From the NCBI GenBank assembly GCA_023229785.1, contig JALNYV010000001.1, positions 620,001 through 684,000 of the forward strand: 64,000 bases of DNA, given 5' to 3'. Positions 22,605 to 35,101 of the stretch are shown here, piece by piece. Both the position numbers and the translations under genes were made by a program. The notes below the pieces were generated by a model, which saw only the letters and a program-made list of their open reading frames with translations, was not told the origin of the DNA and ran no database searches. Every line of letters starts with the position of its first letter. Within the stretch, counting starts at the first letter, position 1. This stretch comes from Candidatus Dojkabacteria bacterium. GTDB lineage: Bacteria; Patescibacteria; Dojkabacteria; SC72.

Positions 22605-22678
22605 GGTGATGTAGCCAAGTTGGTTAAGGCAACAGTCTGCAAAACTGTTATGCATGGGTTCGAGCCCCATCATCACCT
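22605..22678 (+). tRNA. tRNA-Cys (anticodon GCA)
   Basis: The acceptor stem is GGTGATG/CATCACC with T as discriminator (U73 is a Cys identity element). The anticodon stem ACAGT/ACTGT encloses loop CTGCAAA, and the T-loop is TTCGAGC. CCA is not encoded. It lies between the Cys leader/terminator and cysS; the TATAAT only two bases upstream is too close to start the mature 5' end, so read-through from 22448 is the likelier source. Confidence 0.95.
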
Positions 22679-22702: not shown

Positions 22703-24127
22703 ATGTTAAAGATATATAACAAGTTAAGTAGAAAAAAGGAGGAATTTGTCCCAATTACCCCTAATGTAGTTAAGATCTATGGATGTGGAGTTACTCCATA
22801 TAAACCAGCCCACTTGGGACATGCAATGCAGGCCATTATTTTTGATGTTATCCGTAGATATTTTGAGTATAAGGGATATAAAACAACGTATGTTAGAAAT
22901 TCAACCGATATTGAAGACAAGATTATTGAAAAAGCAAAAGAATTTAAAATGGAACCGTTAGAGTATTCTAAAATGATAATAAAACAGGAAGGAGAAGATT
23001 TAAGAAAATTGAGAGTTAGGATTGCTGATTTTGAACCAAAGGTGTCTGAATATATTCCCCAGATAATTTCTGCGGTACAAAAGCTTATAGATACAGGTTT
23101 TGCATATACAACAGAGAAACGGAATGTATATTTTGATATTAGTAAGTTTCCGACATACGGAAAGCTTTCAAGACAGAAATTGGATAAAACTAAAATAGGG
23201 ACAAGGAAAGAGGTAGAAGAAGACAAAAAGAATTCAATGGATTTTGCATTATGGAAGTCATCAAAAGATGAAGAAATTAGTTGGGATAGTCCATGGGGAA
23301 AGGGACGTCCTGGGTGGCATATAGAGTGTTCAGTGATGAGTACATGTATACTTGGACCTCATTTTGATATCCACGGCGGGGGAATGGATTTAGTATTTCC
23401 GCACCATGAAAATGAGATAGCCCAAAGTGAGAGTTTAAACAATGGGCAATTTGTAAACTATTGGGTTTACAACGGTTTACTTATGGTTGGAACCAAAAAA
23501 ATGAGCAAATCTCTTAGTAATGATATTGATATATCTACATGGCTTGAGAGGTATCATCCAGAAGTTATTAGGTATCTCATTTTGACAAACCATTATAGAT
23601 CTCATGTTCAATTTGTACCTGAAAGGTATGTTGAAGCTACAAAGAAAGTATATCAAGCATATAAAGGGTTAAAGTTAGGTATGGAATATATAAATGGAAC
23701 CGAGGATTTAGATCAGAAGCTTTTTGACTCACTTATGAGATTCTTTGAAGATAATATGGACAATGATTTCAATACTGTTCCTGTGATAGCTAAATATAAT
23801 GAGTTAATAAATGAGATAAATAGTGTGGTAATAGAGAAGGGAGATACTATCAAAGTTGCAACATATATTGAGTTTATTCAAAAAACGGGTGGTGTAATAG
23901 GGTTATTTGATTTGAATCCAGCCGATGTTCTTAATGAAATAGAAGATTTATACATTCTGAATCTTGGAATGAAAAGAGATGAGATTTCCAGACTTCTTGA
24001 ACAGAGAAATGAATTCAGAAAGAATAAGGAATATGAGAAAGCAGATGGAGTTAGAAATAATTTACTTAAAAAGGGAATTACTGTTTTAGATACACCAAGT
24101 GGTAGTACTTGGGAATTAGCCTTTTAA
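22703..24127 (+). CDS. cysS: Cysteinyl-tRNA synthetase
   Basis: This class I synthetase has HLGH (HIGH motif, about residues 37-40), KMSKS near residue 267, and zinc-binding segments YGCGVT and WHIECSVM. It charges tRNA-Cys, which is encoded just upstream. The ATG is six bases after TATACT (22691-22696), so a local leaderless transcript may exist besides read-through of the Cys attenuator. Confidence 0.97.
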
Positions 24128-30353: not shown

Positions 30354-30443
30354 GGAGAGGTGCCAGAGTGGTCGAATGGAACGGTCTTGAAAACCGTCAT
30401 AGGGGAAACCCTATCGCGAGTTCGAATCTCGCCCTCTCCGCCA
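30354..30443 (+). tRNA. tRNA-Ser (anticodon TGA)
   Basis: This class II tRNA has acceptor stem GGAGAGG/CCTCTCC, discriminator G and an encoded CCA (30441-30443). The anticodon stem ACGGT/ACCGT encloses loop CTTGAAA. It has a long variable arm and T-loop TTCGAAT. TATAAT at 30336-30341 is a likely -10. It is a useful in-window comparison for the anticodon-less RNA at 30861. Confidence 0.96.
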
Positions 30444-30453
30444 ATAATATAAA

Positions 30454-30855
30454 ATTTCAAATACTACGAGAGATACTTTAAAAGAGCGTTCAGAAAGAAT
30501 CTTAAAGGAGTTATCCGAAAAATTCCCTGGTAAGAAATCTTATGATTTAGATGGTAGAGGGTTACACTTCGTATGTGAAATAGAACCAGTCGATAAGCAT
30601 CCGGAATATGATAAAGCAGTTGAAGTAATTATTTGGAGTAAACCTCATAGACATGAAAAAATGGTTCAACAATATACAATCTTGAAGGGTATCTTGGAAC
30701 TACATGTAGATAATGAGGTTATTATTTTGAAAGAGGGAGATAAATATACCGTTAATCCACCAAAGATACATTGGGGAAAAAGTGAAACCGAATGTTGGGT
30801 AGAAATATATTCAAAACCAGGCTGGACTAAAGAAGATCACATACTTGTTAATTGA
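30454..30855 (+). CDS. Small cupin-fold protein without a normal start codon
   Basis: From the in-frame stop at 30445-30447 the frame is open to 30855 (about 135 codons). A cupin pattern is clear: KPHRHEK, then YTILKGILELHVDNEVIILKEGD and NPPKIHWGKSE. There is no ATG, GTG or TTG in frame until ATG 30661, which lies inside the cupin core. An ATT at 30454 is the earliest possible rare start; otherwise the gene is 5'-truncated. It lies between two tRNA-Ser-type genes. Function unknown. Confidence 0.5.
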   Translation: MSNTTRDTLKERSERILKELSEKFPGKKSYDLDGRGLHFVCEIEPVDKHPEYDKAVEVIIWSKPHRHEKMVQQYTILKGILELHVDNEVIILKEGDKYTVNPPKIHWGKSETECWVEIYSKPGWTKEDHILVN

Positions 30856-30860
30856 GGTTT

Positions 30861-30947
30861 CGGAGGGAGTACGATTTGAACGTACGGCACTTGCGTGCAG
30901 ATATCTCTTGCGAAATATCCTCCAATAAACCACTCTGGCATCCCTCC
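30861..30947 (-). tRNA. Anticodon-less tRNA-Ser-like RNA (probably non-decoding)
   Basis: On minus, 87 bases fold with acceptor GGAGGGA/TCCCTCC, discriminator G, a D-arm like that of the window's tRNA-Ser (TGCCAGAGTGG shared), T-stem GTACG/CGTAC with loop TTCAAAT, and a long variable arm GCAC-GCAA-GTGC. The anticodon arm has no 7-base loop. The bases GGATATTTC and GAGATATCT form a 9-bp helix (with G-U pairs) closed by a GCAA tetraloop. At minimum the loop is 10 bases. CCA is not encoded. SerRS recognises the variable arm rather than the anticodon, so serylation is plausible; decoding is not. It sits 34 bases after the FemAB-family gene. Confidence 0.75.
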
Positions 30948-30956
30948 AATGAAAAA

Positions 30957-30985
30957 ATAATAGAATTAATACATTCCTCTGTCAA
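30957..30985 (-). promoter_or_regulatory. Consensus promoter of the tRNA-Ser-like RNA
   Basis: On minus: TTGACA (30980-30985), 17 bases, TATTAT (30957-30962), then nine bases to the mature 5' end. The -35 overlaps the stop codon of the FemAB-family gene. A promoter this good argues that the RNA is expressed and not a decayed tRNA. Confidence 0.75.
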
Positions 30986-32034
30986 TTTCCTTTCCTAAAA
31001 AATGTTTTCCAATACCATTCAAGTAGTCTATATCCTTGATATTGAATACCTTTGAACACAAAGTCTTTTGCCCTTGTATATTCTACTAATTCTCCTCCAA
31101 ATCCTTTCTTAAAATTGCTATATCCATAACCTGGATATCCTTCATGGTAGTTTTGGTCACTTACAACTCCCCAGAAGTTATATTTCTTACAACCTTTGCT
31201 CATTGCATATTTAATTGATTCCCATTGGAGTAGGTAGCTAGCTCTTAATTTTGTATCATCCTTATTACTTGCGCCGTAAATATAGCAGGCCTCATCTCCA
31301 AAGATTGTAATGATTGCACTAGCAACAGGAGTATTGTTTGCATACGCAGTGATAATATTAGTTATTCCATTTTCTTTTCCGAATTTGAACATATCTTGGA
31401 AATACTTAGAAGGGTGTGTAAAAAACCCCTTCTGTTTAGACATATTTGTTAATAAATCAATGAATGTATTTTGGTCAGTTTCATTTAAATCTGATACTTT
31501 TACACTCACTTTTCCATCTCTTTGACACTTATTTATGTTATATCTTGTCTGAATTCTCATCCCTGACAGTAGTTGTTCTTCTGATTTATTTTCAATATTT
31601 AGTATCCAAGCTCTTTCAACCTGTAAGAAGGTTATTGCATCTTTTGCATTTAACGATTTAAAGATATTTGATATTTCCAAACTATCTTTTCTAACAGAGG
31701 GATCCATCCTTACAAATAGGTAGGAGCCTTTTGCTTTGAAGAATTTAAATATCTCGCCAATTATTTCTTTTGCATCAACTTCCCAGTTTAAAATTGGACC
31801 ACGAGGACAGTATATGAACTTTCCAAGTTTTGTTTGTTCTTCTAAACAAAGACAAGTTGCAACAAGGTTTTCTCCATCAAATACACCTAATCTGAATATC
31901 TTTTTTCCAAGCCCTAAACTTTGAAATTCTCCCCAATTCCAGCTTTGTAAAAAGCTCGATGCTTGAGAATTTAATAGAAAGTTATCAAAATGATTTTTCT
32001 CTGTAATCTCTGAAATTGTATATTTATTTTCCAC
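30982..32034 (-). CDS. FemAB-family tRNA-dependent peptidoglycan amino acid ligase
   Basis: The protein matches FemX/FemAB enzymes, which move an amino acid from aminoacyl-tRNA to the stem peptide of a peptidoglycan precursor. SFLQSWNWGEFQSLG opens the first GNAT-like domain. RYNINKCQRDG and the second domain (SAIITIFGDEACYIYGAS, LLQWESIKYAMSKGCKKYNFWG) are typical. At about 350 residues without a coiled-coil arm it resembles Weissella FemX. GTG 32034 fits the family N-terminus and follows TAATAT; TTG 32061 is the longer alternative. An anticodon-less tRNA-Ser-like gene follows on the same strand. Confidence 0.9.
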   Translation of the reverse strand: MENKYTISEITEKNHFDNFLLNSQASSFLQSWNWGEFQSLGLGKKIFRLGVFDGENLVATCLCLEEQTKLGKFIYCPRGPILNWEVDAKEIIGEIFKFFKAKGSYLFVRMDPSVRKDSLEISNIFKSLNAKDAITFLQVERAWILNIENKSEEQLLSGMRIQTRYNINKCQRDGKVSVKVSDLNETDQNTFIDLLTNMSKQKGFFTHPSKYFQDMFKFGKENGITNIITAYANNTPVASAIITIFGDEACYIYGASNKDDTKLRASYLLQWESIKYAMSKGCKKYNFWGVVSDQNYHEGYPGYGYSNFKKGFGGELVEYTRAKDFVFKGIQYQGYRLLEWYWKTFFRKGN

Positions 32035-32063
32035 TTTTGAGATATTAACAGGTATAATCAAGT

Positions 32064-33685: not shown

Positions 33686-35101
33686 ATGAAAGTGAAATTT
33701 ACAATGCCAAATTATGTAATTAAGGTAGCAAGAATCCTTTCTAAAGAGGGGTATGAATGCTTCCTTGTTGGTGGAGCACTAAGGGACGTTGTTTTAGGAA
33801 TTACTCCTGATGACTACGATTTGGCAACTGACGCTGTTCCAGAAGTGATGTTGAATATATTTCCGAAAGCTGTCTCAACTGGAGCAAAATTTGGAATGGT
33901 CAGTGCTCTTGTTACAGGAGAAGATGGACAAGTAAATGAGGTTCAAGTAACAACTTTTAGAAGTGAAGAAAACTATATCGATGGTAGATGGCCAAGTAAG
34001 GTCACGTTTGTAAAAGAGATAGAAAAGGACCTTGGAAGAAGAGATTTTACGTTCAATGCCATGGCTTTAGATTTGACGAAGGTTAAGGAAGAGAAGGGAG
34101 AAATGGAATGGGAAGTATATGACCCGTTTGATGGCTCTGCTGATTTAAAAAACAAAGTTGTTAGAGCTGTAGGAACTCCACTTGAGAGATTTAAAGAAGA
34201 CGGACTTAGAGCAATGAGAGCTTGTAGATTAGCCTCCCAGCTTGGTTTTGAGATTGAAAAAGATACATTTGAAGCTATAAAGAAGTCCCTTCCTGTTGTA
34301 GCAATGATATCAGCGGAAAGAGTAAGGGATGAGTTTGTAAAAATGATTAAGAACTCTCCGAAACCATCTGTTGGAATCGAATTGATGAGAACAACTGGAC
34401 TACTTGAGTTATTCATCCCAGAACTCTTAGAAGGTTTTGGAGTTGAGCAGAAGCTTTTCCATGCCGATGATGTGTATCACCACATACTTAAAACTTGTGA
34501 TAGTGCACCAAAGGATATAAGACTGGCAGCACTTTTTCATGATATTGGAAAACCGAGAAAAGACATGGGAAATGGCCATTTCTATGGGCACGATGTTGAG
34601 GGTGCAAAAATGGCGGAAGAGATTATGACGAGGCTTCGATTTTCAAAATCAGAGATTAGGAGAGTGTCAGCTCTTGTTAGAAGTCATATGTTCTATTTCC
34701 CACATATTGAAGATGATATGACGCAAGAAGAGAAAGAAAAGATAAAAGAAAAGGAGTGGTCGGATAGTGCAGTTAGGCGCTTTATTGCGAAAGTAGGGGA
34801 GGAAAATCTTGAAGATTTATTTGAAGTTAGAATTGCTGATGCAACAAGTAATCCTAAAACTGCATTTAGACCTGAAGAGATATCACTCCTTCAAGAAAGG
34901 ATATCGGAAGTTAGGGCAAAGGATATGGCATTAAAGATATCAGACCTAAAAATAACTGGAGATGACCTAATGAAAATGGGTGTTCCCAAGGGACCTAAAA
35001 TAGGGAGGATTTTAAACGAGCTTTTAGAAAAAGTATTAGATGACCCAAGTATAAATACTAAAGAAATACTAGAAAAAGAGGTAAAAACAACTATTAAATG
35101 A
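33686..35101 (+). CDS. cca: tRNA nucleotidyltransferase (CCA-adding) with HD domain
   Basis: The class II nucleotidyltransferase head has LVGGALRDVVLG and the catalytic DYD, then RRDFTFNAM and the RFKEDGLRAMRACRLASQLGF neck. An HD domain follows with LFHDIGKP and GHDVEGAKMAEEI. It adds or repairs the tRNA 3' CCA end. Four of the five ordinary tRNAs here and the tRNA-Ser-like RNA lack an encoded CCA, so this enzyme is needed for them. Confidence 0.95.
   Translation: MKVKFTMPNYVIKVARILSKEGYECFLVGGALRDVVLGITPDDYDLATDAVPEVMLNIFPKAVSTGAKFGMVSALVTGEDGQVNEVQVTTFRSEENYIDGRWPSKVTFVKEIEKDLGRRDFTFNAMALDLTKVKEEKGEMEWEVYDPFDGSADLKNKVVRAVGTPLERFKEDGLRAMRACRLASQLGFEIEKDTFEAIKKSLPVVAMISAERVRDEFVKMIKNSPKPSVGIELMRTTGLLELFIPELLEGFGVEQKLFHADDVYHHILKTCDSAPKDIRLAALFHDIGKPRKDMGNGHFYGHDVEGAKMAEEIMTRLRFSKSEIRRVSALVRSHMFYFPHIEDDMTQEEKEKIKEKEWSDSAVRRFIAKVGEENLEDLFEVRIADATSNPKTAFRPEEISLLQERISEVRAKDMALKISDLKITGDDLMKMGVPKGPKIGRILNELLEKVLDDPSINTKEILEKEVKTTIK

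Follow-up and report, generated by a model that had tools for sequence, protein, structure and literature searches.

tmRNA is a charged tRNA-like RNA without an anticodon; it is of the alanine type, with a G3-U70 pair, and carries an mRNA part. The wall-dedicated tRNA-Gly of Staphylococcus keep an anticodon. According to the excerpts of the cited papers, on which the cited statements in this work are based, these tRNA-Gly have been proposed to be kept from translation, escaping EF-Tu by way of the T stem and other changes (PMC9976931, PMC4052509). The Bacillus cereus pseudo-tRNA tRNA-Other is a tRNA-like gene outside translation whose deletion leads to a thinner wall; it carries the anticodon for Trp, its charging in vitro is poor and it occurs within longer RNAs (PMC3399842). 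tRNA-Sec is a class II tRNA that is serylated by SerRS, with a 13-bp acceptor branch and a 6-bp D stem (PMC7609411). The serine identity of a tRNA is described as residing in the variable arm, G73 and the acceptor stem, independently of the anticodon (PMC9976931, PMC7609411), and a weaker determinant in the anticodon stem, G30-C40, has been reported for Methanosarcina barkeri (PMC9976931). Open-licence papers in PubMed Central were searched for an anticodon-free tRNA of class II that has a ligase as its partner or is phage-borne, and the titles and abstract openings of the matches listed showed none; the nearest published cases are tRNA-Other and the wall tRNAs of Staphylococcus.

Here we describe an RNA gene in a 64-kb stretch of DNA (the window, i.e., the whole 64,000 nt analysed) that resembles a canonical bacterial tRNA-Ser in its acceptor stem, D and T arms, long variable arm, G73 and a -10 box shortly upstream, but differs from it in having a 22-nt closed arm in place of the 7-nt anticodon loop and an inverted C52-G62 pair.

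Sequence and predicted structure of the RNA

The gene lies on the minus strand at 30861-30947, a placement that was already correct in a preliminary description of this DNA, and specifies an 87-nt RNA with G73 and no encoded CCA. As that description also had it, the RNA has the acceptor stem, D and T arms and long variable arm of a tRNA-Ser, and every stem is fully paired (acceptor 7 of 7 pairs, D 3 of 3, T 5 of 5 and variable arm 4 of 4). T8, A14, G15, G18-G19, C48 and the T loop TTCAAAT are present as well when tRNA numbering is assigned by eye, and the T arm (GTACG-TTCAAAT-CGTAC, 30869-30885, minus strand) contains the C52-G62 pair. The variable arm, 4 bp with a GCAA loop, is 13 nt long, slightly under the range of 14-23 nt in 175 normal tRNA-Ser, and only the D-stem pairs have a low probability, about 0.29, when the RNA folds freely.

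In normal tRNA-Ser the D stem is followed by a 17-nt anticodon arm, made of a 5-bp stem and a 7-nt loop, and then by the variable arm, whereas the window RNA has in its place 22 nt (30899-30920, minus strand; RNA positions 28-49) that form nine pairs, among them a basal G-U and one inner U-G, and are closed by GCAA. The GCAA-capped helix of up to 9 bp that had been noted in place of the anticodon loop is borne out by the predicted fold: the basal G-U has a pair probability of 0.84 and the other eight pairs have at least 0.99. Within RNA positions 27-50, no 7-nt loop with at least three closing pairs can form. The fold of the whole RNA has a z of -4.0, and none of 200 shuffles was as stable. 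Random 22-mers of the window's composition reach nine nested pairs with a frequency of 0.00019, and, given a 10-nt loop, three extra pairs together with a GNRA loop arise by chance with a frequency of 0.0024.

ARAGORN called five normal tRNAs in the window, with no call at 30861-30947 and no tmRNA, and the Rfam tRNA family (RF00005) gave no match to the window RNA at its gathering score or at E <= 1. The two relatives described below, L274 and L391, both fall short of the RF00005 gathering score; ARAGORN missed L391 outright, as it did the window RNA, and called L274 as tRNA-???. Because the program and the Rfam family both fail on the three, more such RNAs may hide in known genomes.

Positions 1-27 and 49-73 were compared with those of 175 distinct normal tRNA-Ser from the fetched loci. 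Every one of these positions that is invariant in the 175 is kept in the window RNA, including G1-C72, G2-C71, T8, A14, G15, G53-C61, TTC, A58 and G73 (G1-C72, G2-C71, A14, G15, G53-C61 and G73 are found in 175 of 175 each). Pair 52-62 is C-G in the window RNA vs G-C in 149 and A-U in 26 of the 175, none of which has C52-G62; in a larger set of 262 distinct tRNA-Ser it is G-C in 214 and A-U in 48, and Y52-G62 does not occur. The A51-U63 pair of the window RNA, which with C52-G62 was considered as a T-stem change that might weaken EF-Tu binding, is found in 23 of the 175. The earlier statement that serine recognition does not involve reading the anticodon agrees with the excerpted account of serine identity as anticodon-independent (PMC9976931), and the weaker determinant G30-C40 is absent from the window RNA, which by our numbering has U-A there.

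An ordinary tRNA-Ser(TGA) gene lies 420 nt away on the opposite strand (30354-30440, plus strand) and served as a comparison gene. Across 12 acceptor and T pairs, the window RNA and this tRNA-Ser differ on both sides of five pairs and are the same in seven, with none broken; ten changes scattered at random leave 12 of 12 pairs intact with a frequency of 3.5e-5, a figure that takes tRNA-Ser(TGA) as its reference even if the true parent may be another isoacceptor. An origin of the window RNA as an inverted copy of this tRNA-Ser(TGA) is not supported, because other tRNA-Ser are closer to it in each half.

Relatives in Patescibacteria and a phage

The window is placed in the Dojkabacteria class of Patescibacteria by its topoisomerase I, which shares 58-61% identity along almost the entire protein with the enzymes of 13 genomes listed in the class of genome G003, whose locus L003 is from Candidatus Dojkabacteria. 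A covariance model made from the window RNA alone (R1) was run against six genomes reached through loci, 379 genomes drawn from the phylum, 85 genomes of the window's class and 373 genomes drawn from the class to which G006, the source of a Woykebacteria locus, belongs. The last set yielded L274 (G583:C22:77898-77988, 60.7 bits), which belongs to another Patescibacteria class than the window's Dojkabacteria. Folded without the model, L274 forms nine pairs under a GUAA cap where the anticodon arm would be, and its variable arm has 7 bp. A second model (R2), made from the window RNA and L274, was run against 82 genomes of the order of G583, 24 genomes (most being FemAB-locus sources), 361 genomes of the phylum and 208 genomes of the G811 class. 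L274, itself part of the model, reached 102 bits; the best other matches reached at most 70.9 bits and, as far as they were checked, proved to be ordinary tRNA-Ser. R1 and R2 gave no further members among the checked matches from the other genomes. The genome samples for the two models overlap, the results are the best matches listed, and stricter filters applied above 40 genomes; for the class search, 30 loci and 114 fetched stretches were read among the matches listed.

A T-arm pattern with Y52-G62 and a tRNA-Ser acceptor end was scanned through 363 fetched loci and IMG/VR. It matched only L274 and L363, a longer copy of L274, in the 363 loci and 62 stretches in IMG/VR. Of 63 pattern sites in IMG/VR, 32 are in tRNA-Ser called by ARAGORN and 31 are uncalled, 24 of the latter being without an acceptor stem of at least six pairs. 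The third RNA, L391, is one of the uncalled sites; it is 103 nt long and comes from a tailed-phage contig of 43 kb (phage record IMGVR_UViG_3300020034_000036) with genes for the large subunit of terminase, a major head protein, an endopeptidase and a DNA methyltransferase. At its anticodon place L391 has four pairs, a UxU, six pairs and an 8-nt loop, i.e., 10 bp with one UxU and a loop that is not GNRA. Its variable arm has 7 bp, its fold made without the model has a z of -4.9, and it scores 66.9 bits with R2. A gene for a ParB-like protein lies 111 nt upstream on the same strand, and ARAGORN found no tRNA in the 40 kb of the contig that were read. Neither the window RNA nor L391 had a blastn match at E 1e-3 in 50,697 phage records, and the other IMG/VR pattern scans returned 0 matches or L391 alone. 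L274 and L391 were both found with a model or pattern made from one or more earlier members.

For the three RNAs together, the alignment was fitted to the structure model R2, and the separate folds of L274 and L391 show the same arms. Over 28 pairs, 83 of 84 cells pair, and 11 pairs are changed on both sides (mean in shuffles, 3.6). The observed pairing measures are reached by 0 of 500 shuffles, a count that is not a probability for related sequences, in which relatedness alone can beat shuffles, and three sequences are a small set; when one side is slid by 1-3 columns, pairing falls to 39-53% of cells. The preliminary description had proposed covariation of the replaced arm as a check, and here 26 of 27 cells of the replacement helix pair and six of its nine pairs change on both sides. 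The others comprise one pair with a one-sided change, one invariant pair and one that departs only by the UxU of L391, so that nine of nine pairs are kept in L274 and eight of nine in L391. With the window RNA and L274 alone, all nine are paired in both, five being changed on both sides and two on one side. This suggests, at the level of sequence, that the arm replacing the anticodon loop is under selection, with a closed hairpin kept in different letters.

The 17-nt T arms show 0, 1 and 1 differences among the three RNAs, that of the window RNA being identical to the base with that of L391 and one base off that of L274. They are at least three bases from those of 131 distinct cellular tRNA-Ser 3' halves, and the T arm of one phage tRNA is one base from those of the window and L391 RNAs. 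The 5' halves differ at 6, 6 and 4 of 26 positions. Judging from these sequences, the 3' halves probably go back to a common ancestor, and a single descent of the whole RNA is plausible; since ordinary tRNA-Ser have 5' halves within two differences of the window RNA's and within three of L274's, independent origins are possible.

A positional screen covered the window and 453 loci, 454 sequences in all among which loci that overlap may be counted twice, demanding 7 of 7 acceptor pairs, G53, G73, T8 and the D-loop motif and trusting ARAGORN wherever it makes a call. It gave 430 class-II-like candidates, eight of them without a normal ARAGORN call, namely the three family members (two of which are present twice), L144, L379 and L405. 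By eye, L379 and L405 are phage tRNAs with 7-nt loops. The only candidates among the 430 without an ordinary anticodon loop were thus the window RNA, L274 and L391; owing to the strict demands and the reliance on ARAGORN calls, looser relatives, e.g., L389, are invisible to this screen.

Several other tRNA genes were encountered along the way. L144:101-221 (minus strand, genome G422) is a tRNA-Ser(GGA) of 121 nt that has a giant variable arm and is left uncalled by ARAGORN. In six genomes of the order of G583 (L265, L290, L291, L304, L305 and L331), ARAGORN calls a tRNA-Ser with the anticodon ACT, A34 being an unusual wobble base. In the viral loci L364-L425, 28 of 43 distinct tRNA-Ser 3' halves have the inverted C52-G62 pair, these sequences having been chosen by a pattern that demands it. 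Because ordinary phage tRNA-Ser have it too, Y52-G62 was dropped as an exclusive signature of the family. L389:4735-4817 (minus strand), on a GC-rich viral contig, is a tRNA-like RNA downstream of a tRNA-Met with a 7-bp acceptor stem, 6 bp and GAAA at the anticodon place, a 5-bp variable arm with GCAA, a 4-pair T stem, a TTCGAAT T loop and a z of -2.8. It is possibly a second type of anticodon-free RNA; we do not count it as a member of the family, as the case is weaker and there is no clear sequence kinship to the three.

Promoter and neighbouring genes

A promoter-like TTGACA-17-TATTAT (30957-30985, minus strand) precedes the window RNA. It had been noted before and is indeed present and close to consensus, with its -10 box ending 9 nt before the RNA and its -35 box overlapping the stop codon of the FemAB gene upstream. 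Under the criteria of an exact TTGACA, at most one mismatch to TATAAT and a spacing of 16-18, it is the sole such site on the minus strand and one of five on both strands of the 64 kb. A looser consensus scan of 2 kb found seven promoter-like sites vs a shuffle mean of 7.5, the site of the RNA being the best (11 of 12). The tRNA-Thr, tRNA-Ser and tRNA-Leu of the window are preceded, as read by eye, by TATAAT boxes with their ends 14, 12 and 12 nt upstream, and for its tRNA-Cys this distance is 2 nt. The tRNA-Cys (22605-22678, plus strand) is, again by eye, 24 nt upstream of a cysteinyl-tRNA synthetase-like gene (22703-24127, plus strand). A cupin-domain frame of 135 codons (30448-30852, plus strand) runs towards the RNA, its listed start, ATG at 30661, leaving only 64 aa. 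A gene for the CCA-adding enzyme (tRNA nucleotidyltransferase) is located at 33686-35101, 2.7 kb from the RNA. No phage genes were recognised beside the window RNA or in the 20 kb around L274, as judged by eye with Pfam for a few.

The upstream neighbour on the same strand encodes a FemAB-family aminoacyl-tRNA-dependent ligase (30982-32061, minus strand; Pfam FemAB, 1.8e-39). The 34-base spacing reported earlier is accurate, as the FemAB stop is at 30982 and the 5' end of the RNA at 30947. The structural model of P0001, a close homologue of the window FemAB, has a pLDDT of 89.4, and FemX structures head the list of its PDB matches (TM 0.77-0.81 by query length). An association of such RNAs with FemAB genes as a rule, which the preliminary description had proposed, did not hold up: L274 starts 35 nt after a glycosyltransferase gene and L391 lies beside the ParB-like gene, and the search for FemAB genes followed by class II tRNA-like RNAs came back empty, with no anticodon-free class II RNA in the stretches around 46 GTDB FemAB loci or 30 class FemAB loci (two overlapping sets in which some loci end at contig ends). 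FemAB linkage is accordingly not a defining feature of the RNA among the loci examined. Normal tRNAs do occur within 300 nt downstream of a FemAB match on the same strand in three of the 46 loci (L003, L005 and L008), which makes FemAB-tRNA adjacency unremarkable by itself, and with the relatives beside other genes the adjacency in the window may be incidental. The nearest FemAB whose DNA was compared is 47% identical, the closest proteins being P0002 (84%) and P0003 (78%), so linkage is not refuted for the window's own lineage. Co-occurrence is uninformative because 69 of 85 class genomes match the window FemAB, and a FemAB search of IMG/VR, with 94 pattern stretches, confirmed none. As a separate observation, a FemAB gene is followed by a same-strand tRNA-Gly(GCC) in L005, L008 and, at 1.3 kb, L004 (L004 and L008 being from Woykebacteria), a possible FemAB/tRNA-Gly linkage.

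Discussion

The window RNA differs from each of the described systems. It has A3-U70 rather than the G3-U70 of tmRNA, and its 87 nt include no mRNA-like part. A 12-bp acceptor branch, a 3-bp D stem and the absence of a UCA anticodon separate it from tRNA-Sec, and the absence of an anticodon loop, together with its serine type, from the Staphylococcus tRNA-Gly; tRNA-Other is set apart by its published description. Of the earlier interpretation, the tRNA-Ser-like RNA without a loop capable of decoding and the covariation of the replaced arm stand, and the FemAB linkage as a rule does not.

On balance, with modest confidence, we favour the reading that the window RNA belongs to a small, patchy family of tRNA-Ser mimics in which a longer closed hairpin has replaced the anticodon stem-loop and which are probably serylated and used outside the ribosome. 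That it is a small family is drawn from the relatives in another candidate-phylum bacterium and in a phage, one member each coming from a Dojkabacteria-class chromosome, a genome in a different Patescibacteria class and the contig of a tailed phage (n=3). Under this reading, the window RNA would be transcribed from its own promoter, trimmed like a tRNA and then given its CCA by the tRNA nucleotidyltransferase; it would adopt the L shape typical of tRNAs, its variable arm being long, and SerRS would probably charge it. Since it has no anticodon loop, decoding should be impossible for it, and its working end would then most likely be the seryl acceptor end or the tRNA-like body, acting outside the ribosome as a donor or a decoy. 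The parts relevant to serine and FemX are kept and the decoding loop is lost, a combination that fits a charged acceptor or a decoy.

If the RNA is charged with serine, it might be dedicated to the adjoining FemAB ligase for a peptidoglycan cross-bridge, which we hold to be unlikely. The two genes are 34 nt apart on one strand, the predicted fold of the FemAB resembles FemX, and the excerpts report G2-C71, which the window RNA has, as an identity element of W. viridescens FemX (PMC4052509), propose a FemX helix facing the tRNA acceptor stem (PMC12945691) and report wall-dedicated tRNAs in Staphylococcus (PMC9976931). G583, the genome of L274, has two FemAB genes as well, one of them 35% identical to the window FemAB, but they are on other contigs and the RNA there adjoins the glycosyltransferase gene. 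Further points against dedication are the 46 and 30 FemAB loci without such an RNA, the uninformative presence of FemAB in 69 of 85 class genomes, and an excerpted turnover of Ser-tRNA by W. viridescens FemX that is 17-fold below that of Ala-tRNA (PMC4052509); the 43-kb phage record has no FemAB match either, an empty answer that shows nothing by itself. FemAB is, from the sequence, one possible user of the window RNA, and it is equally likely that the RNA serves as a phage-related decoy or has some other user of Ser-tRNA. Such a decoy, phage-borne or mobile, would occupy SerRS or tRNA-targeting defence enzymes while being uncuttable in the anticodon loop, and the chromosomal copies would have been captured from phages. 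The L391 contig with its terminase and major head protein and without an ARAGORN tRNA in 40 kb, the patchy spread across distant hosts, and the inverted 52-62 pair, found in phage tRNA-Ser and in 0 of 262 comparison tRNA-Ser, all fit a decoy. We nevertheless regard it as rather improbable, considering that no phage genes were recognised near the window RNA or in the 20 kb round L274, that blastn against the 50,697 phage records gave no match to the window and L391 RNAs, and that the viral tRNA-Ser were selected by a pattern demanding Y52-G62.

Two further readings were considered. For a decaying tRNA-Ser copy with an insertion that folds by chance speaks the single copy known in its own lineage; the intact conserved positions and stem pairs, the double changes in the stems, the promoter in place and two relatives whose arm is closed at this position too make this very unlikely, and a chance hairpin or pseudogene is likewise hard to square with the fold frequencies, the paired changes and the covariation. 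On paper, the arm can also be drawn as a 6-bp stem with an enlarged 10-nt anticodon loop, TTCGCAAGAG, as in a decoding tRNA that reads or shifts unusual codons. However, the three inner pairs have probabilities above 0.99, L274 has the same closed form in other letters, and no common anticodon was seen by eye, so that we give this reading hardly any credence.

As a more speculative extension of the family reading, on the doubtful side in our estimation, anticodon-free seryl-tRNAs may move between phages and Patescibacteria, with a charged or chargeable phage mimic that does not decode and feeds or blocks Ser-tRNA-using enzymes being kept by some hosts, here beside a FemAB gene. The known diverted tRNAs in the excerpts either contain an anticodon (tRNA-Other) or are said to escape EF-Tu (PMC3399842, PMC9976931). 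A tRNA-Ser with a covarying hairpin in place of its codon-reading loop would, if true, be a clean natural split of charging from decoding, and the family would offer a direct test of how Ser-tRNA is routed to enzymes outside the ribosome and of the benefit that a non-decoding tRNA brings to a phage.
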